Below are positions 22,936-37,225 of a stretch of 64,000 nt of DNA, in pieces (within the stretch, counting starts at the first letter, position 1; each line of letters begins with the position of its first letter). The stretch covers positions 1,612,001 to 1,676,000 of the forward strand of contig AP009389.1 in NCBI GenBank assembly GCA_000010565.1, written 5' to 3'. The position numbers and the translations under genes are program-made. The notes beneath the pieces were generated by a model that was not told the DNA's origin, did no database searches, and was given only the letters and a program-made list of their open reading frames with translations. Origin of the DNA: Pelotomaculum thermopropionicum SI. Lineage in GTDB: Bacteria; Bacillota; Desulfotomaculia; Desulfotomaculales; Pelotomaculaceae.

Positions 22936-23260
22936 ATGAATCTCCCCCTTAAGCTGTTTAACTGTATAGTCGTTTGAAAACGCAAAACGTTACAGTTAAA
23001 ATATAAAATATTTTAGACAACAGGGACAGTCTCCTGTTGAAAATAGCTGTTAAAAACCCTTAATTTAATTAATTTAGAAGTAATTAGAGGGGTATGTAGT
23101 TTGTTTATAGAATCCATAATCAACAAGAAAAGGCAAACCCGGGCGAAAGCCGGGGGCGCAAAGCCATGTGTCCAAAGCCGCGGGGAGGCTACTATCGCCA
23201 GGCTGCCGCACATATAAGCAGCCTCCCCTGCCAAAGTAGCATTAGGGAAGGTTTTTTAAT
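22936..23260. other. Divergent intergenic region carrying the riboswitch
   Basis: These 325 bases lie between the YcdB/YcdC-type gene and the sigma gene. The right half is the c-di-GMP-I aptamer and its expression platform (23121-23230). The left half contains ACAGGGACAGTCTCCTGT near 23028, a small palindrome without clear role. Confidence 0.6.
23121..23208 (+). promoter_or_regulatory. Cyclic di-GMP-I (GEMM-I) riboswitch aptamer
   Basis: The segment contains GGCAAACC (23132-23139), a GAAA tetraloop closed by CGGGC/GCCGG, the invariant GCGCAAAGCCA (23156-23166) and the 3' element ATCGCCAGGCTGCCG (23194-23208). This is the order and spacing of class I c-di-GMP aptamers. GGGGAGGCT (23182-23190), inside the aptamer, is a perfect 9-base complement of AGCCTCCCC (23220-23228), giving an alternative stem and a plausible switch. 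It lies 53 bp upstream of the ECF sigma start. Confidence 0.85.
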
Positions 23261-23848
23261 TTGAAAGTTGAAACAATTGTTCAAAAACTAAAAAATGGGG
23301 ATATTCAGGCTTTAAGACTTATTTATGAACTATTTTACAAACAGGCCTTTAAGGCAGCGTTTTTCATCACCAATGATGCTGGTCTGGCTGAAGACGCCGT
23401 TCACGAAGTTTTTTTGAAACTCCTGGACAAAGCAGACCAGATCGAAGACCCCTCAAAACTGGAAGCCTGGCTCTGCCGCACGGCGTCCAACACGGCCCGG
23501 GACATCATGCGCCACCGTTACAGGAGCGCGCTTTTCGCCGAGGCCAGGAATGTTTACTCGAACAATCAGAGGATATCCCCGGAAGCAACTCTGCTGATTA
23601 ATGAAGAAAAGCAAATCGTTAAACAATATATTGAGCGTCTTCAACCAGAACATAAAATAGTGATTTATTTAAAATATTATAAGGATTTGCCAGTTGATGA
23701 AATTAGTAAAATCCTGGGTATTCCGGTAGGGACCGTTAAATCCCGCCTGATTAGAGCAAGGGTAGAATTAAGAAAAATAATGGATCCAGAAAACTATCTT
23801 AACCGTCATAATATAAGCAGTTTAGCAGACCGCAAAGGGGTGAAGTAG
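23261..23848 (+). CDS. ECF-type RNA polymerase sigma factor
   Basis: This 195-residue protein has a region 2 (GDIQALRLIYELFYKQAFKAAFFITNDAGLAEDAVHEVFLKLLD), an acidic linker and a region 4 (LQPEHKIVIYLKYYKDLPVDEISKILGIPVGTVKSRLIRARVELRKIM). It starts with TTG at 23261 behind GGGAAGG. Two bases separate it from the putative anti-sigma gene, so the pair is one operon. The c-di-GMP riboswitch in its leader implies that c-di-GMP controls its expression. The regulon is unknown; neighbouring secreted-protein genes are candidates. Confidence 0.93.
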   Translation: MKVETIVQKLKNGDIQALRLIYELFYKQAFKAAFFITNDAGLAEDAVHEVFLKLLDKADQIEDPSKLEAWLCRTASNTARDIMRHRYRSALFAEARNVYSNNQRISPEATLLINEEKQIVKQYIERLQPEHKIVIYLKYYKDLPVDEISKILGIPVGTVKSRLIRARVELRKIMDPENYLNRHNISSLADRKGVK

Positions 23849-23850
23849 TC

Positions 23851-24639
23851 ATGAAACAACCTTCCGATATTGAACTGGAAAAACTAATTAAAGACAGCGT
23901 ACGAGAAATGGTTGAATCGGCCGCTCCTCCCCCGCTGGAAGAATCCTGGGCGCGTTTTGAAAAAAAGCTGAAAGATAAACAGCCCAATTTAGTAAAACAT
24001 CACATAATAAAAAATAAAAATCCTTTACCTTTACGCTTGGCCATAGCGGCGGGTATTATTGTACTTTTAGCCGGAACCCTTTCCATCTCTTTTCCAACAA
24101 AAGCCAGGGCGTTGGGTGTAAAAATAGTTAATATTGTAGGGACCCTGATCAGCGGCACGCAGATGAATGTTAGAACTGAATACAAGCACAACGAGCCCGG
24201 CCAGCCGACCCCGCCCGGTGAGGGAGTCAGGGAAGTTGAAATCGGACAGGAAACAGTCGTTTCAATAGATGAAGCAAGGTCGGCTTGTCCCTATCCCCTA
24301 GTGATTCCTGAATATTTGCCTCCCGGCTTTGTACTTGATACCGTCAAATTTCAGGAAATGGTAAAACCGGTTGTAAAAGTTACTATGCGTTTTACCGGGC
24401 CTGATTCAAGTTGCTTCTTGTTTACCCAGGTCAACTCGCCCGGCGAATACGCTCAAGGATACGGTTATGATTTGGAGGATGCCACCGTGCAAGATTTTAT
24501 TGCCGGTGAAAACAACGGAAAGCTTGTCACATTTAAAAATAACAAGATTAAATTTATGTGGATAAAGCAGGGGGTAATTTATTCGCTGGAAGGAAACCTC
24601 CCGAAAGAAGATACCTTGAAAATAATCCAATCAATGTAA
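23851..24639 (+). CDS. Putative membrane anti-sigma factor with DUF4367-like domain
   Basis: This 262-residue protein has a cytoplasmic N-terminus (about 1-58) with the sigma-binding-sized helical stretch EESWARFEKKL, one membrane segment (LRLAIAAGIIVLLAGTLSI, about 62-80) and an extracytoplasmic domain with PYPLVIPEYLPPGFVLDTVKF, a DUF4367-like start. Its position directly after the sigma gene (two-base gap, ribosome site GGGGTGAAG inside the sigma 3' end) supports an anti-sigma role. The final 46 codons are duplicated at 30117-30255. Confidence 0.8.
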   Translation: MKQPSDIELEKLIKDSVREMVESAAPPPLEESWARFEKKLKDKQPNLVKHHIIKNKNPLPLRLAIAAGIIVLLAGTLSISFPTKARALGVKIVNIVGTLISGTQMNVRTEYKHNEPGQPTPPGEGVREVEIGQETVVSIDEARSACPYPLVIPEYLPPGFVLDTVKFQEMVKPVVKVTMRFTGPDSSCFLFTQVNSPGEYAQGYGYDLEDATVQDFIAGENNGKLVTFKNNKIKFMWIKQGVIYSLEGNLPKEDTLKIIQSM

Positions 24640-24664
24640 AAGGGCGCCTAAAATGCCCTTATTT
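24640..24664. terminator. Bidirectional terminator, sigma operon / DUF6147-like gene
   Basis: AAAAGGGC-GCCTAAAAT-GCCCTTATTT forms a stem-loop just past the anti-sigma stop, overlapping the end of the convergent gene. The same sequence is present in the duplicated copy at 30256-30280. Confidence 0.65.
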
Positions 24665-25121
24665 AATTCGCGTAAATATATCCGGAATAAGAGGACGCCG
24701 ACTCGTTATAACCATTTTCGGTCAAGCCATGAGTGGCCCTTGTTCTATAGTAATATCCTTTTGTAACCTGCAGTCCCTTGGCTCCGCCTACATACGAGTC
24801 TGAATACTTTTCAAAGGGCCAACTCGCCAAATCAACCCAACTGCTGCCGTTCCAGCGCTGTATATACAGCCTGACCATGATGTAATCTACCGTCTGATAA
24901 GCCTGGGTGAAACCGGTAATATTAAGATAACCGTCACCCACGTAATTTATGTCGCACCCCCAATCCTGCAGGTAAAGCAAGGACTTAATACCTGCTTCTT
25001 TAAATGGCTCGTTTGGTCCCGGAGGCGCTTTAGACCAGGGAGCAGCTGCAAAAGCAACACTGGTTACCGCAAGTAAAACAACCATTAACAGTAAAGAAAA
25101 CGCGCTTTTCTTAAACCCCAT
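24663..25121 (-). CDS. Small secreted DUF6147-like protein, copy 1
   Basis: This 152-residue exported protein starts at ATG 25121 (GGGGAGAG seven bases upstream), with the signal peptide MGFKKSAFSLLLMVVLLAVTSVAFA. The mature part is a beta-rich domain (GDGYLNITGFTQAYQTVDYIMVRLYIQRWNGSSWVDLASW, KGYYYRTRATHG) like small secreted Bacillota proteins grouped as DUF6147; that resemblance is from memory. Function is unknown. An almost identical copy lies at 30279-30737, differing at residues 29 (W here, G there) and 112 (G here, A there). Its upstream DNA carries a large inverted repeat (25158-25261). Confidence 0.75.
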   Translation of the reverse strand: MGFKKSAFSLLLMVVLLAVTSVAFAAAPWSKAPPGPNEPFKEAGIKSLLYLQDWGCDINYVGDGYLNITGFTQAYQTVDYIMVRLYIQRWNGSSWVDLASWPFEKYSDSYVGGAKGLQVTKGYYYRTRATHGLTENGYNESASSYSGYIYAN

Positions 25122-25157
25122 CAAACCACTCTCCCCTTTGTAAAAATAAATTGTCTT

Positions 25158-25261
25158 CATTAAGACGTTTGAGAATGTAATTTGGATCCATTTTTTTAAG
25201 AAATTTTTTTAGAATTATTTTTAATTTATGGATCCTAAAGCCGTTTTCATTCGTCTTAATG
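25158..25261. repeat. 104-bp region with 34-bp imperfect inverted repeat, copy 1
   Basis: Arms begin CATTAAGACG (25158-25167) and end GGATCCAT (25184-25191); the second arm runs ATGGATCC (25228-25235) to CGTCTTAATG (25252-25261). About 26 of 34 positions pair, with a 36-base AT-rich loop. It is also present at 30774-30877. Confidence 0.65.
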
Positions 25262-25271
25262 TGAATGCATC

Positions 25272-25345
25272 ATTCAACAGGGGGGGTGAATCCAATGGGC
25301 AATGAAATTAAAATGGTTCGTGAGGCAAACAAGGGTCAGCCGCAA
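25272..25345 (+). repeat. Leader-like element shared with 34131-34204
   Basis: ATTCAACAGGGGGGGTGAAT is identical in both places; GGTTCGTGAGGCAAACAAGG here matches GGTCGCGAGGCAAACTAGG there. Each stands ahead of a plus-strand gene for an exported protein. The GAGGCAAAC core recalls the 5' half of c-di-GMP-I aptamers, but the rest of that fold is not evident. Confidence 0.45.
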
Positions 25346-25445: not shown

Positions 25446-26285
25446 ATGAAAAGACTTCTTGTAACCCTAATCATCTTCTCTTTACTACTCATGTTAACAT
25501 CCACGGTTGCATACGCTAAATCGTTTGAGGAGAGCAATCTTAGTGCTTGGGATATTGAGCTTCAGCAGCAGAGAGAGGCTGAAAAACCGTTACCATTGGA
25601 AGAAGGAATCAAAAAGTTTAATGAAAACAAAGCAATTGCTGATCAACAAAAAGCAGAAGCGGATCAAAAAGCTTTAGAACAAATAATCCAAGGAGCTAGA
25701 ACTTCACCAGGGAGCGTTGAAATTCCCCCTGGGCTCGAATCTAAAAAGGATACAGATTCAGTTACTTCGGCTGATGTAGTAAAAACATGGTATTATTGGG
25801 CCAATCGAGATAAATCAGATGGTGGTTCAGGCATCGGTTGGAGTGGTTCTTCTTGGGCGGCCTACGATGATATCAGAAACGGATCAAGAGCAGAATTGTA
25901 TGGTGATTACTGGGCAAAAGCTTGGGGATGGGATTATTATACACCTTCTACAACCGGGAACTATTCTGTAACAACTAAATTTTATGTTACAGGACGCATT
26001 ATTAGCGGTAGTTCATTAGCAGTAAAAGTCAAAGTGACTGATACCAGTACTGGGCAAACTGTAACAAGAACCATTTTTAACCCCTCCCCTGGGTACTTTA
26101 ATAATCAAGAAGTTATTGCTACTGAGCAATTTTACCTGTATTCTGGCCACGAATACGCATTCACGTTTGAGACAGAAACTGATGCAAGTGCTCTCGTCAC
26201 CGCTACATTTAGCGATTTCTTTGAAAAAGAATTTGGCGGGACACAGCGGAAAATCTATTTCTATAGTATGAGTCTATCCATATAA
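25446..26285 (+). CDS. Secreted protein of unknown function, 279 residues
   Basis: I do not recognise this gene. It has a clear signal peptide (MKRLLVTLIIFSLLLMLTSTVAYA), a charged helical region rich in Gln/Lys/Glu (about 35-80) and a C-terminal beta-sandwich-like region rich in Tyr, Trp, Ser and Thr (TWYYWANRDKSDGGSG, YWAKAWGWDYYTPSTTGNYSVTTKFYVTG, DTSTGQTVTRTIF). AAGGAGGAATACAA-ATG is a strong ribosome site and a good terminator follows at 26405-26431. It probably acts outside the membrane; binding of a surface or polysaccharide ligand is only a guess from the fold-like pattern. Confidence 0.75.
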   Translation: MKRLLVTLIIFSLLLMLTSTVAYAKSFEESNLSAWDIELQQQREAEKPLPLEEGIKKFNENKAIADQQKAEADQKALEQIIQGARTSPGSVEIPPGLESKKDTDSVTSADVVKTWYYWANRDKSDGGSGIGWSGSSWAAYDDIRNGSRAELYGDYWAKAWGWDYYTPSTTGNYSVTTKFYVTGRIISGSSLAVKVKVTDTSTGQTVTRTIFNPSPGYFNNQEVIATEQFYLYSGHEYAFTFETETDASALVTATFSDFFEKEFGGTQRKIYFYSMSLSI

Positions 26286-29835: not shown

Positions 29836-30115
29836 GTTAAACCACCTATTCCTTAAATTGTTATAATTATGCCAATATTACTGTGCTTTCTGTCATATTT
29901 GTGCAGGCAAACTGGTGTCCTTCAAAAATTTCAATAGCTCGTTTCTCTCATTGTTAAAGATATTATAAATGTATTTATCTGGGATTACAAGCTTAGTGCG
30001 ACACTTCGGTGGTGTCAACTTGTTGTAGGATTTTTTTATTTGGGGACGTGGGGACAAGGGGACAGGTCCCTTGTCACAAAGTTGCTGTAGAGTTGCATTT
30101 CAATAGTGGGATGAA
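29836..30115. other. Gene-free stretch with palindromic repeat
   Basis: There is no gene. GGGGACAAGGGGACAGGTCC and CCTTGTCAC near 30048-30078 form the palindromic GGGGAC-type repeat often seen scattered in Bacillota genomes. Confidence 0.4.
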
Positions 30116-30116
30116 T

Positions 30117-30255
30117 TGCCGGTGAAAACAACGGAAAGCTCGTCACATTTAAAAATAACAAGATTAAATTTATGTGGATAAAGCAGGGGGTAATTTATTC
30201 GCTGGAAGGAAACCTCCCGAAAGAAGATGCCTTGAAAATAATCCAATCAATGTAA
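30117..30255 (+). pseudogene. Duplicated 3' fragment of the anti-sigma gene
   Basis: The last 46 codons of the gene at 23851-24639 (AGENNGKLVTF ... KIIQSM) are repeated, with one residue change (T to A in EDALKII). There is no start, promoter or membrane segment, so it is a non-functional tail carried along with the duplication. Confidence 0.85.
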
Positions 30256-30278
30256 AAGGGCGCCTAAAATGCCCTTAT

Positions 30279-30737
30279 TTAATTCGCGTAAATATATCCG
30301 GAATAAGAGGACGCCGACTCGTTATAACCATTTTCGGTCAAGCCATGAGTGGCTCTTGTCCTGTAATAATATCCTTTTGTTACCTGCAGTCCCTTGGCTC
30401 CGGCAACATACGAGTCTGAATACTTTTCAAAGGGCCAACTCGCCAAATCAACCCAACTGCTGCCGTTCCAGCGCTGTATATACAGCCTGACCATGATGTA
30501 ATCTACCGTCTGATAAGCCTGGGTGAAACCGGTAATATTAAGATAACCGTCACCCACGTAATTTATGTCGCACCCCCAATCCTGCAGGTAAAGCAAGGAC
30601 TTAATACCTGCTTCTTTAAATGGCTCGTTTGGTCCCGGAGGCGCTTTAGACCCGGGAGCAGCTGCAAAAGCAACACTGGTTACCGCAAGTAAAACAACCA
30701 TTAACAGTAAAGAAAACGCGCTTTTCTTAAACCCCAT
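30279..30737 (-). CDS. Small secreted DUF6147-like protein, copy 2
   Basis: This near-identical paralogue of the protein at 24663-25121 has 152 residues, the same signal peptide and the same GGGGAGAG ribosome site. It differs at residue 29 (Gly for Trp, just after the signal peptide) and residue 112 (Ala for Gly). Its upstream inverted repeat (30774-30877) is retained, but an IS3 element begins 13 bp beyond it, which may change its promoter context. It is probably still functional; the function is unknown. Confidence 0.75.
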   Translation of the reverse strand: MGFKKSAFSLLLMVVLLAVTSVAFAAAPGSKAPPGPNEPFKEAGIKSLLYLQDWGCDINYVGDGYLNITGFTQAYQTVDYIMVRLYIQRWNGSSWVDLASWPFEKYSDSYVAGAKGLQVTKGYYYRTRATHGLTENGYNESASSYSGYIYAN

Positions 30738-30773
30738 CAAACCACTCTCCCCTTTGTAAAAATAAATTGTCTT

Positions 30774-30877
30774 CATTAAGACGTTTGAGAATGTAATTTG
30801 GATCCATTTTTTTAAGAAATTTTTTTAGAATTATTTTTAATTTATGGATCCTAAAGCCGTTTTCATTCGTCTTAATG
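30774..30877. repeat. 34-bp imperfect inverted repeat region, copy 2
   Basis: Same structure as 25158-25261 (CATTAAGACG ... GGATCCAT / ATGGATCC ... CGTCTTAATG), carried by the duplication. Confidence 0.6.
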
Positions 30878-30990
30878 TGAATGCATCATTCCGGTTCAAA
30901 CCCCTAATTTTAGAGTCTACTCCCTTATTCTCTTGTTTACATAGAATTAAAGATATTTTTGACCACAGTAAATTCCTTCACTTTAATAAC

Positions 30991-32795: not shown

Positions 32796-33761
32796 CTAAA
32801 CCTTTACAATGAAGGGCTTAAGTTGGCCCGCAGCCAGCCGCTGCCGGAACTCACAAGGCGCAAAATCATACAGACTGCCGTGGATACGCCGTTCATTATA
32901 AAACCGGATGTATTCGTCAACTAACTTATAGGCTTCCTGGTAGGACACGAATTCGTGCCGGCTTAAGCATTCCGCTTCCAACAAGGCGTGGAAAGACTCA
33001 ATGTGAGCATTTTTATTCGGTGTTTTCGGGGGAATCCGCTCATGCTCAACGCTGAATTTCTCACAAGCCTCCTCAAACGCATGGCTGATAAATTGGGGGC
33101 CGTTATCGCTCCGGATTACCGGACGATAGTTTGTTTTAAAGAGATTACGCTTCCACAAGGCCCGCTGGAGGACCTGGGCGGCATGTTTCCCTTCACAGGA
33201 CAACCCCAGGTGGTAATCCACAACCATCCGGTCATAAACGTCAATGAAGCACATCAGGTAGAAAAAACGGTCTTCTTCGGTAATATAGCCGTACTTGATA
33301 TCTACTTCCCAAAGCTGATCTGAAGCGGTAATCTTACGGTTGACTGCCAGGCGCCTGGGGTGCTTGACCTTAATCCGCCGCTGAGGTACCAGTATATCCA
33401 ACTCCTTGCAGAGCCGGTAGACTTTTTTGTTATTAATTACCAGATTATACCGGCGGCGTAGACAAATGGCCAGTTTCCGGTAGCCGTAAGCATTTTCTTC
33501 CCCGGCAACCAGTTCCATTAACCATTCTTTGATTTGCTCGTTACTTATCCGCTGCCGGTCCCTTGTCCATGAATATGCCGTGTTGGGCCGTCCGCTTCTT
33601 GGCTTATGGTTTATCGGGGCATGATCCTTTCGCTTTTTTCGATGGTAGTAGGTTGCTTCGTGTACGCCAACAATTCTCAGTACCAGTGAACATGCATACC
33701 CCCGGGCGATCCACTTGTTGGCTATTTCTATTCTGTCAGAAAGCCCGGGCGAGTCTTTTTT
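32796..33761 (-). CDS. IS3-family transposase OrfB, left copy
   Basis: This integrase-core protein has DQLWEVDIKYGYI (first Asp), VIRSDNGPQFISHAF (second Asp) and KNAHIESFHALLEAE (Glu), then RFYNERRIHGSL. Its first ATG (33518) lies inside the conserved region, and the frame opens about 80 codons earlier without a start codon. It is therefore made as a fusion with OrfA through a -1 shift at the AAAAAAG at 33761-33755. It is the mirror image of the gene at 36260-37225. Confidence 0.9.
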   Translation of the reverse strand, partial: KKDSPGLSDRIEIANKWIARGYACSLVLRIVGVHEATYYHRKKRKDHAPINHKPRSGRPNTAYSWTRDRQRISNEQIKEWLMELVAGEENAYGYRKLAICLRRRYNLVINNKKVYRLCKELDILVPQRRIKVKHPRRLAVNRKITASDQLWEVDIKYGYITEEDRFFYLMCFIDVYDRMVVDYHLGLSCEGKHAAQVLQRALWKRNLFKTNYRPVIRSDNGPQFISHAFEEACEKFSVEHERIPPKTPNKNAHIESFHALLEAECLSRHEFVSYQEAYKLVDEYIRFYNERRIHGSLYDFAPCEFRQRLAAGQLKPFIVKV

Positions 33762-34054
33762 ACCAGATCCCTCAAAATGGCAATCTCTAGATCTTTTTCG
33801 CCAAGCAACTTTTTCAGAGTGTTATTTTCCTTTTCCATTTTCCGGAATTCCTGGGGCGATGGAATATATGCCGTTACTTTTTTGGCATCTGCAGCGGTTT
33901 CCTCCCATGCTTTGTGTTTACAGTCCTGAATCCAGCGGTACAATGTTTTGGGGCTAACCCCGTGCCGTCTGGCAACGGAAAGAGTGTTGCCAACCTCCTG
34001 TGCTTCCTGGATAAGTTGTTCTTTGAAATTTTTAGGATATCTCTTGCGTTTCAT
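33728..34054 (-). CDS. IS3-family transposase OrfA, left copy
   Basis: This 108-residue helix-turn-helix protein (MKRKRYPKNFKEQLIQEAQEVGNTLSVARRHGVSPKTLYRWIQD) has a leucine-zipper-like C-terminus (EKENNTLKKLLGEKDLEIAILRDL). It starts MKRKRYPKNFKEQ, three residues longer than the right copy. GGAGGGGTATGG precedes the ATG. The slippery heptamer A-AAA-AAG is near its end. Confidence 0.9.
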   Translation of the reverse strand: MKRKRYPKNFKEQLIQEAQEVGNTLSVARRHGVSPKTLYRWIQDCKHKAWEETAADAKKVTAYIPSPQEFRKMEKENNTLKKLLGEKDLEIAILRDLVKKTRPGFLTE

Positions 34055-34130: not shown

Positions 34131-34204
34131 ATTCAACAGGGGGGGTGAATCCAATGGACAATTAAAAACGGGTCGCGAGGCAAACTAGGAAAGTCCGCAA
34201 AACT
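34131..34204 (+). repeat. Leader-like element, copy 2, resumes after the IS3 insertion
   Basis: This is the continuation of the duplicated segment split by IS3. ATTCAACAGGGGGGGTGAAT is identical to 25272-25291; similarity fades after about 75 bases. It lies about 190 bp upstream of the exported beta-propeller-like protein gene. Confidence 0.5.
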
Positions 34205-35975: not shown

Positions 35976-36293
35976 ATGAAACGCAAGAGAAATTTCAAAG
36001 AACAACTTATCCAGGAAGCACAGGAGGTTGGCAACACTCTTTCCGTTGCCAGACGGCACGGGGTTAGCCCCAAAACATTGTACCGCTGGATTCAGGACTG
36101 TAAACACAAAGCATGGGAGGAAACCGCTGCAGATGCCAAAAAAGTAACGGCATATATTCCATCGCCCCAGGAATTCCGGAAAATGGAAAAGGAAAATAAC
36201 ACTCTGAAAAAGTTGCTTGGCGAAAAAGATCTAGAGATTGCCATTTTGAGGGATCTGGTAAAAAAGACTCGCCCGGGCTTTCTGACAGAATAG
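35976..36293 (+). CDS. IS3-family transposase OrfA, right copy
   Basis: This 105-residue OrfA starts MKRKRNFKEQLIQEAQEVG; a 9-bp in-frame deletion removed three residues after MKRKR relative to the left copy, before the helix-turn-helix. GGAGGGGTATGG-ATG is intact. The heptamer A-AAA-AAG lies at 36260-36266 in the zero frame, as in IS150-type programmed -1 frameshifting. Confidence 0.9.
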   Translation: MKRKRNFKEQLIQEAQEVGNTLSVARRHGVSPKTLYRWIQDCKHKAWEETAADAKKVTAYIPSPQEFRKMEKENNTLKKLLGEKDLEIAILRDLVKKTRPGFLTE

Positions 36294-37225
36294 AAATAGC
36301 CAACAAGTGGATCGCCCGGGGGTATGCATGTTCACTGGTACTGAGAATTGTTGGCGTACACGAAGCAACCTACTACCATCGAAAAAAGCGAAAGGATCAT
36401 GCCCCGATAAACCATAAGCCAAGAAGCGGACGGCCCAACACGGCATATTCATGGACAAGGGACCGGCAGCGGATAAGTAACGAGCAAATCAAAGAATGGT
36501 TAATGGAACTGGTTGCCGGGGAAGAAAATGCTTACGGCTACCGGAAACTGGCCATTTGTCTACGCCGCCGGTATAATCTGGTAATTAATAACAAAAAAGT
36601 CTACCGGCTCTGCAAGGAGTTGGATATACTGGTACCTCAGCGGCGGATTAAGGTCAAGCACCCCAGGCGCCTGGCAGTCAACCGTAAGATTACCGCTTCA
36701 GATCAGCTTTGGGAAGTAGATATCAAGTACGGCTATATTACCGAAGAAGACCGTTTTTTCTACCTGATGTGCTTCATTGACGTTTATGACCGGATGGTTG
36801 TGGATTACCACCTGGGGTTGTCCTGTGAAGGGAAACATGCCGCCCAGGTCCTCCAGCGGGCCTTGTGGAAGCGTAATCTCTTTAAAACAAACTATCGTCC
36901 GGTAATCCGGAGCGATAACGGCCCCCAATTTATCAGCCATGCGTTTGAGGAGGCTTGTGAGAAATTCAGCGTTGAGCATGAGCGGATTCCCCCGAAAACA
37001 CCGAATAAAAATGCTCACATTGAGTCTTTCCACGCCTTGTTGGAAGCGGAATGCTTAAGCCGGCACGAATTCGTGTCCTACCAGGAAGCCTATAAGTTAG
37101 TTGACGAATACATCCGGTTTTATAATGAACGGCGTATCCACGGCAGTCTGTATGATTTTGCGCCTTGTGAGTTCCGGCAGCGGCTGGCTGCGGGCCAACT
37201 TAAGCCCTTCATTGTAAAGGTTTAG
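36260..37225 (+). CDS. IS3-family transposase OrfB, right copy
   Basis: The frame enters from OrfA at the slippery site and continues KDSPGLSDRIEIANKWIARG to the stop at 37225. No ATG, GTG or TTG occurs before 36503, so the frameshift fusion is the likely active product (about 415 residues). The catalytic DDE residues in WEVDIKYG, RSDNGPQF and HIESFHALLEAE are all present. Apart from the upstream deletion in orfA it matches the left copy. Confidence 0.9.
   Translation, partial: KKDSPGLSDRIEIANKWIARGYACSLVLRIVGVHEATYYHRKKRKDHAPINHKPRSGRPNTAYSWTRDRQRISNEQIKEWLMELVAGEENAYGYRKLAICLRRRYNLVINNKKVYRLCKELDILVPQRRIKVKHPRRLAVNRKITASDQLWEVDIKYGYITEEDRFFYLMCFIDVYDRMVVDYHLGLSCEGKHAAQVLQRALWKRNLFKTNYRPVIRSDNGPQFISHAFEEACEKFSVEHERIPPKTPNKNAHIESFHALLEAECLSRHEFVSYQEAYKLVDEYIRFYNERRIHGSLYDFAPCEFRQRLAAGQLKPFIVKV

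Follow-up and report, generated by a model that had tools for sequence, protein, structure and literature searches.

We analyzed a 64,000-nucleotide stretch of the Pelotomaculum thermopropionicum SI genome (contig AP009389.1, positions 1,612,001 to 1,676,000), referred to here as the window, in which a class I cyclic di-GMP (c-di-GMP) aptamer precedes a gene for an extracytoplasmic function (ECF) sigma factor and a gene for a putative anti-sigma factor. The aptamer and the operon form a real riboswitch-ECF module that is conserved in related genomes. We consider it reasonably probable that the whole chain runs from a SigH-type start through a translational OFF riboswitch to an ECF sigma factor acting on a pair of secreted-protein genes, with the switch weakened in this genome.

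A class I c-di-GMP aptamer precedes the sigma gene

23122 to 23210 (+), c-di-GMP class I aptamer (RF01051), with the GAAA tetraloop kept and, compared with related leaders, changes in the tetraloop receptor letters and in two P3 pairs
23261 to 23848 (+), ECF sigma factor of 195 amino acids, TTG start, with sigma-70 regions 2 and 4 (PF04542, PF08281)
23851 to 24639 (+), putative anti-sigma of 262 amino acids, composed of an N-terminal part, one hydrophobic span (about residues 61-82) and a DUF4367 domain with an RseB/MucB-like fold

The first-pass annotation of this DNA had proposed a class I aptamer ahead of the sigma gene, and a covariance search with cmscan bore this out. The c-di-GMP-I family (RF01051) matched 23122-23210 on the forward strand over the full model with 57.3 bits (E 1.4e-8, gathering score 35). 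The sister model c-di-GMP-I-GGC (RF03167) was retained for the same positions in E-value mode (49.3 bits, E 2.9e-9), at a score below the gathering score of 59 for membership in that family. The aptamer does lie upstream of the sigma gene, at a distance of 50 nt from its end to the TTG start and not the 53 bp first given.

By comparison with the Vc2 sequence, we take G 23132, A 23160 and C 23206 to be the equivalents of Vc2 G20, A47 and C92, and these columns are constant in five intact leaders. In Vc2 numbering these three residues contact c-di-GMP (PMC11218506), and cGAMP-type GEMM-Ib aptamers carry A20 in place of G20 (PMC6456294). The P2 GNRA tetraloop of the window is GAAA, and the P3 receptor reads CCAA/UACU against CUAA/UAUG in relatives.

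A search of the genome, a single contig of 3,025,375 bases, revealed eight class I aptamers over the gathering score, among which the window copy was the lowest (57.3 bits versus 63.5-87.3 for the others). Judged by eye from the open reading frames (ORFs), the seven others precede two HD-domain genes, a chemotaxis receptor gene, a gene for a PilB-like ATPase, a flgB-like flagellar gene, a membrane-protein gene and a sigma-like gene amid mobile-looking surroundings. Because eight GGDEF domains are present in the genome, c-di-GMP is probably made in P. thermopropionicum.

Conservation of the leader before related sigma operons

The anti-sigma protein was searched in 150 genomes, its own included, and a match at E 1e-5 was obtained in 40 of them. 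Rfam scanning covered 16 of 30 loci of a first collection and 9 of 13 of a second, and aptamers were found in 4 of the 16 and 4 of the 9 scanned loci, three of the latter four belonging to genomes that had also given aptamers in the first. Aptamers over the gathering score precede related operons in five other genomes, with 69.7-95.4 bits. Thirteen sigma genes of the group had upstream sequence (PtaB.Bin104, without such sequence, was left out), and seven of them carry the aptamer leader: that of the window, two in STF1_176, and those of G005, UBA10960, P. propionicicum and Desulfallas sp. Bu1-1. Of the two STF1_176 leaders, one was found only with a leader covariance model; the sigma gene behind it is at a contig end and lacks its anti-sigma partner. 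The placement of a riboswitch before a sigma operon, as first annotated, is thus conserved in relatives. Six more distant loci (L020-L025) had no aptamer in the Rfam scan.

Across 113 genomes of the order, the leader model scored six leaders at 146.7-173 bits and a remnant in PtaU1.Bin035 at 93.4, and the next-best site among the matches listed reached 83.6 bits. The scores of the training sequences are high by construction because six of these seven sequences trained the model; the second STF1_176 leader and that of Desulfofundulus australicus did not. D. australicus scored 40.0 (E 7e-10), its match stopping at the sigma start. A weak match in BL5_bin.2 (15.2 bits, E 0.015) that spans the sigma start was rejected as a remnant and not counted.

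In a tree built from sigma and anti-sigma, the window groups with STF1_176, G005 and UBA10960 (100/100). In the same tree P. propionicicum, with an aptamer, is sister to PtaU1.Bin035, with a remnant, and Desulfallas, with an aptamer, is sister to BL5_bin.2, which has none. Since sister pairs mix aptamers with remnants or with none, leader loss and decay are frequent.

Three further observations were made at these loci. The Desulfallas aptamer (L116) has a second, identical 127-nt copy in L078 (G074:C58), beside DUF6147-like gene fragments at a contig end. Near the P. terephthalicicum operon, L118:790-908 (-) matches a molybdenum/tungsten cofactor riboswitch with 61.9 bits. The PtaU1.Bin035 remnant leader (L114/L045) has A at the G20 position, as in cGAMP-type GEMM-Ib, and the rest of its aptamer is decayed.

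Class I aptamers are common in the order, occurring in 93 of 110 genomes. Our census took 80 aptamer sites from the best-scoring ones listed for the order, in sequence and leaving out loci already examined (among them the Desulfallas ECF site). A downstream ORF of at least 70 amino acids, the longest within 800 nt, was present for 72 of the 80 sites, and the most frequent Pfam families among the best 25 of 68 were HD (8/72), T2SSE (6), T2SSF (5) and MCPsignal (4). A sigma profile run on six frames of the 80 sites gave three matches: one was an ECF gene (L138) some 1.2 kb away, with another ORF in between, and the other two were region-4-like genes in L149 and L167. An ECF/anti-sigma operon directly behind the aptamer was found at none of the 80 sites. 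The class I aptamers of L149 (G102) and L167 (G020) have terminator-like hairpins upstream of these sigma-region-4-like genes, and in L167 a recombinase-like ORF comes next, as judged by eye.

Mutually exclusive pairings in the leader

23180 to 23186 (+), P3 tip segment resembling a Shine-Dalgarno (SD) sequence; 23180-23185 forms 6 bp with 23226-23231 in the computed ligand-free fold (minimum free energy, pair counts)
23200 to 23206 (+), 3' strand of the aptamer core, AGGCTGC, which holds the mapped Vc2 C92 and pairs with 23218-23224 in the ligand-free fold
23218 to 23231 (+), switching strand GCAGCCTCCCCTGC, with the anti-SD at 23222-23229
23244 to 23257 (+), SD AGGGAAGG (23244-23251) followed by T6 (23252-23257), as read in the sequence

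The SD pairs with 23222-23229 with one C.A mismatch. The helices 23180-23185:23226-23231 and 23200-23206:23218-23224 are mutually exclusive with the folded aptamer; alternative pairings, as first proposed, do exist and could switch the ribosome site. The nine-base pairing originally drawn between 23182-23190 (GGGGAGGCT) and 23220-23228 (AGCCTCCCC) is exactly complementary, but the composite of two helices is better than that single helix.

In six aligned leaders the ligand-free pairing was kept in 97.6% of cells, SD sequestration in 95.7% and the aptamer in 86.6%; slid controls were lower, at 38-55% for the ligand-free pairing and 54-79% for SD sequestration. Two pairs of the aptamer helices show changes on both sides, which was matched by 20 of 500 shuffles. 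Forcing the aptamer raised the computed SD:anti-SD pairing in all five intact-aptamer leaders, strongly in three (0.19 to 1.00, 0.24 to 0.97 and 0.04 to 0.74). This rise argues for an OFF switch, likely acting at translation.

In the proposed mechanism, the messenger from a SigH-type promoter would start almost at the aptamer. At low c-di-GMP the P3 tip and the aptamer 3' strand would capture 23218-23231, leaving the ribosome site freer, and sigma and anti-sigma would be made (ON). At high c-di-GMP the folded aptamer would hold both segments, the freed strand would pair with the SD and translation would drop (OFF). The T-run behind the SD/anti-SD hairpin may contribute some termination. The sigma factor would be restrained by a membrane-bound anti-sigma whose outer domain is RseB-like, and would drive a divergent promoter pair and thereby two secreted proteins.

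A SigH-type promoter-like site upstream of the aptamer

23086 to 23115 (+), SigH-type promoter-like site AGAGGGGTA-N12-ATAGAATCC (-35 at 23086-23094, -10 at 23107-23115), 14.2 bits with a position weight matrix (PWM)

The SigH matrix was built from 29 of 30 typed Clostridioides difficile promoters (Table 3, 40 rows, PMC7438776). The typed sites themselves score 13.6-22.3, placing the window site near the low end. In seven of the eight aptamer or remnant leaders scored, the best SigH-like site is found immediately upstream of the aptamer, at a distance of 165-178 nt from the sigma start. The scores were 14.2 (window), 17.0, 17.0, 17.0, 19.2, 21.5 and 16.2, and in the same order 13, 2, 0, 3, 0, 0 and 9 of 1000 dinucleotide shuffles scored as high. 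The eighth leader, that of Desulfallas, scored 7.1 and has only about 28 nt of sequence upstream of the aptamer. Four leaders without an aptamer gave 12.7, 11.0, 8.2 and 8.8. The genome has a SigH gene (382.1 bits). From these sequence matches we infer that the sigma operon would be transcribed from a SigH-type promoter.

Sigma and putative anti-sigma proteins

Both ORFs are open in the window, and the order of sigma followed by anti-sigma is preserved in relatives. The sigma factor scored 42.0 bits with PF04542, 50.4 with PF08281 and 87.6 with TIGR02937, and has only sigma-70 regions 2 and 4. Among the best 25 of 91 models, none of equivalog or subfamily type exceeded its cut-off to give the sigma factor a named ECF group.

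The anti-sigma has one strong hydrophobic span, with a hydropathy peak of 2.33 at residues 63-81. Its only Pfam match was DUF4367, and no NCBIfam model matched; we call it putative because no known sigma-binding domain model was matched. In an AlphaFold model, the confidence of the outer domain was 64-90 by block and fell to 43 around residues 201-210. The DUF4367 domain aligned best with the C-terminal domain of RseB and MucB (Z 9.8-10.8; top alignment 94 residues, 2.8 Å), which occupied the first six rows of the structural comparison, the next unrelated row having Z 8.8. Foldseek E-values were weak (6e-3 at best). RseA/RseB and MucA/MucB are envelope-stress systems; unlike in those, the RseB-like domain here lies within the anti-sigma itself, in Bacillota, and a profile search of the anti-sigma in solved structures gave no match.

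A divergent promoter pair and the candidate regulon

24663 to 25121 (-), DUF6147-like secreted protein (PF19644, 22.9-23.2 bits, just below the cut-off of 24)
25158 to 25189 (-), ECF-type promoter GGATCC-N16-CGTCTTAATG, toward the DUF6147-like gene
25230 to 25261 (+), ECF-type promoter GGATCC-N16-CGTCTTAATG, divergent, toward the 279-residue gene
25446 to 26285 (+), 279-residue secreted protein without a Pfam match
23782 to 23813 (+), ECF-type promoter-like site within the sigma gene at its 3' end, with 37 nt between it and the anti-sigma start (PWM 20.1)
30115 to 30891 (strand not assigned), 777-nt copy of 24499-25275, 98.7% identical, with the anti-sigma 3' end, the DUF6147-like gene and the promoter pair, and no aptamer or sigma gene

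The start of the DUF6147-like gene was set at 25121, the ORF's own start at 25160 falling within the promoter -10. PF19644 was matched by 11 of 11 sequences of set A5 (window included) at E 0.1 or better, the best being 1.3e-9. A structure model of the protein (mean predicted local distance difference test score 80.5) gave generic beta-sandwich matches.

Both promoter pairs in the window are exact, with 5 matches at up to 3 mismatches against 0.30 expected. Twelve related loci, drawn from 10 genomes, provided 24 sides of the pair, of which 18 scored at least 18 of 20, compared with 2 of 1200 shuffled sides; shuffled sides reached 14 in 380 cases, 16 in 55, 18 in 2 and 20 in none. A tally of 24/24 sides at a score of 14 was discarded as too lax, given those 380 shuffled sides. 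The tally left out P. propionicicum, a broken copy of the DUF6147 gene found in L039, and also D. australicus, which has no DUF6147 gene in the stretch examined and an ECF-type site of 18.4 divergent from its sigma gene. GGATCC-N16-CGTCTTA is the probable promoter of the window ECF sigma.

The regulon outputs first suggested were supported in part. The DUF6147-like and 279-residue genes share the divergent ECF-type pair, with sites upstream of 25121 and 25446, whereas the YcdB/YcdC-like gene (22935) and the PD40-like gene (34397) were rejected as members, their best upstream scores being 2.0 and 2.1 versus 23.8. An ECF-type promoter for the sigma gene itself was likewise rejected (best 3.4 in the window, at most 6.9 on the forward strand of 12 leaders). 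Genome-wide matches to the pattern with 2 mismatches were dismissed as noise, with 26 at up to 2 mismatches versus 43 for the reversed pattern.

The site within the sigma gene scored 20.1; the highest score among 20 shuffles was 17.6. Counterparts scored 14.0 in P. propionicicum, 12.2 in BL5_bin.2, and 16.8 and 16.5 in isolates 25 and 27; none was found in G005, UBA10960, PtaU1.Bin035, D. australicus or P. terephthalicicum (0.8 or less). It is possible that this site provides negative feedback, and it may be a coding coincidence because the protein sequence there is partly conserved. Elsewhere in the genome, an ECF-type promoter-like site of score 21.9 (G000:C1:1981843) lies 55 nt before another class I aptamer (1981930), and similar riboswitches in G020 and G102 had no ECF-type site. 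At this locus (G000:C1:1981843-1982019) the aptamer is followed by a terminator-like hairpin and by genes with HTH_16, sigma region 4 and glucosaminidase (below cut-off) matches.

Several repeats lie near the locus. The 777-nt duplication sits amid transposase-like ORFs. Downstream of an ECF-type promoter, a conserved leader piece, GTGAATCCAATGG...GAGGCAAAC, occupies 25281-25345 and is repeated near 34131-34200 and also in L039; it is possibly a small peptide gene or its remains, and as a candidate RNA element it was set aside, no Rfam family being matched. Inverted identical 511-nt arms at 33521-34031 and 35990-36500, with transposase-like ORFs, flank the PD40-like gene in a composite-transposon-like arrangement.

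Strength of the switch and alternative explanations

A number of observations weigh against the proposed chain. Among the relatives, the other STF1_176 sigma copy with an aptamer looks broken, its similarity stopping at residue 146 of 195, and the anti-sigma of this copy reads one TGA. Only remnants, without an Rfam match at E 1, stand before 2 of the 13 sigma genes (PtaU1.Bin035 and Desulfofundulus australicus), and 4 of the 13 have no aptamer (BL5_bin.2, P. terephthalicicum, isolates 25 and 27). The leader platform of Desulfallas sp. Bu1-1 differs and is terminator-like, so that separate acquisition of the aptamer leader there is possible. In the ON and SD helices no pair is altered on both sides and column shuffles leave the pairing unlowered; these helices are therefore conserved, not covarying. 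On forcing the aptamer, the rise in SD pairing was small in UBA10960 (0.85 to 0.94), and the ligand-free ensemble of the window already covers the SD (0.65; 0.85 with the aptamer forced), in energies of secondary structure that leave out tertiary contacts and the ligand. AlphaFold gives most of the N-terminal, sigma-binding half of the anti-sigma a confidence below 50, so that the model does not bear on sigma binding. The P. propionicicum DUF6147-like gene has no ECF-type site in the 137 nt available before the contig end (best 2.2).

The window aptamer is also the poorest, at 57.3 bits versus 69.7-72.1 in the four nearest intact leaders, and the window copy might be a relic that no longer binds c-di-GMP at cell concentrations, its operon being translated independently. 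The change of the receptor from CUAA/UAUG to CCAA/UACU, the loss of two P3 pairs and the complete decay in two relatives point the same way. The computed cost of forming the aptamer is 13.2 kcal/mol in the window versus 5.4, 8.3, 8.1 and 4.1 in four relatives; in the PtaU1.Bin035 remnant it is 18.6 kcal/mol, with SD:anti-SD pairing going from 0.04 to 0.26. Window-only against relative-only aptamer changes number 7:2, 8:2 and 8:2 in three relatives, comparisons that are not independent and individually not significant, and this excess is suggestive of weakening. Against a relic stand a score still far above the Rfam gathering score, a compensatory change in P2 (A-U to G-C) and the three mapped contact positions, all intact. 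An altered receptor region need not abolish binding, because the consensus of the c-di-GMP-I-GGC model lacks an upper P3 stem, and this model matches the site as well; moreover, another aptamer of this genome (L005, 73.1 bits) lacks UAUG. We consider a relic somewhat unlikely. The lost P3 pairs and receptor letters and the costlier folding indicate that the riboswitch of this strain is probably weakened, and c-di-GMP should therefore repress less than in relatives.

Control might instead be exerted on transcription, with the SD/anti-SD hairpin and T6 forming an intrinsic terminator. T6 follows the hairpin immediately (23252-23257), and in Desulfallas Bu1-1 the sigma gene is preceded by a terminator-like hairpin and its T-run; however, the loop of the window hairpin spans 14 nt and its stem contains one mismatch, two relatives have no more than T4 as their T-run, and the 3' arm is the SD itself. 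A terminator scan omitted this hairpin, which says little because the scan admits loops of 3-8 only. Termination in place of translational control seems to us unlikely. An ON switch, in which the P3 loop of the ligand-bound aptamer would form a pseudoknot with the anti-SD and so expose the ribosome site, is quite improbable. Complementarity between the P3 loop (GCAGGGA in relatives) and the anti-SD speaks for it, as does the P3 tip stem, which is kept less well than any other helix (65% of cells). Against it, the inner ligand-free helix needs the aptamer 3' strand 23200-23206, unavailable while the aptamer is folded, and nested folding, computed without pseudoknot energies, favours OFF in all five intact leaders. 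The frequency of aptamers in the order leaves room for a coincidental position without regulation of the sigma operon. This we regard as extremely improbable, given that the leader, the platform and the upstream promoter-like site are conserved together ahead of related sigma genes and that the aptamer lies 50 nt from the start codon with no gene in between.

Comparison with known systems and implications

In C. difficile, the flgB class I riboswitch exerts transcriptional OFF control over a 29-gene flagellar operon holding sigD (PMC11477304), and the general idea is therefore already known. The present leader resembles it in class, in its predicted OFF direction, and in having a sigma gene among its targets so that a regulon follows c-di-GMP; it differs from what is described there in that the first target is an ECF sigma with a putative membrane anti-sigma and control is apparently translational. 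As in Bc1 of B. thuringiensis (PMC11218506), a class I aptamer is joined to a platform that can hide the ribosome site with c-di-GMP, but upstream of mcpE Bc1 carries a pair of terminators and a more extended platform, compared with 50 nt before the sigma gene here. In the RsiG-(c-di-GMP)-WhiG system of Actinobacteria (PMC8325347), c-di-GMP likewise limits the output of a sigma/anti-sigma pair; there it binds the anti-sigma protein, whereas here the RNA leader should limit synthesis of both proteins. Among the papers listed in a literature search, with subscription papers largely outside its coverage, none described a c-di-GMP riboswitch ahead of an ECF sigma/anti-sigma pair. What is new is that the target is an ECF/anti-sigma pair, along with the SigH-like promoter and the decoy platform.

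More tentatively, and on balance doubtfully, the translational OFF module may belong to a starvation-triggered (SigH), c-di-GMP-gated cascade in which the P3 tip serves as a decoy ribosome site, a second riboswitch is sigma-driven, and stages of dismantling are visible. Of these stages, P. propionicicum and UBA10960 would show the intact form, P. thermopropionicum a weakened one, and PtaU1.Bin035 and Desulfofundulus australicus a remnant, with nothing left elsewhere. If the ECF sigma also drives the second riboswitch (1981930), gating would occur at two levels. The main reading would itself place an ECF sigma/anti-sigma pair, usually read as envelope-responsive, under three inputs: SigH, c-di-GMP via RNA, and the anti-sigma. 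The analysis offers a candidate promoter and candidate outputs for this sigma group of Pelotomaculum and related anaerobes, and the natural series of leaders from intact to lost may make riboswitch decay measurable.

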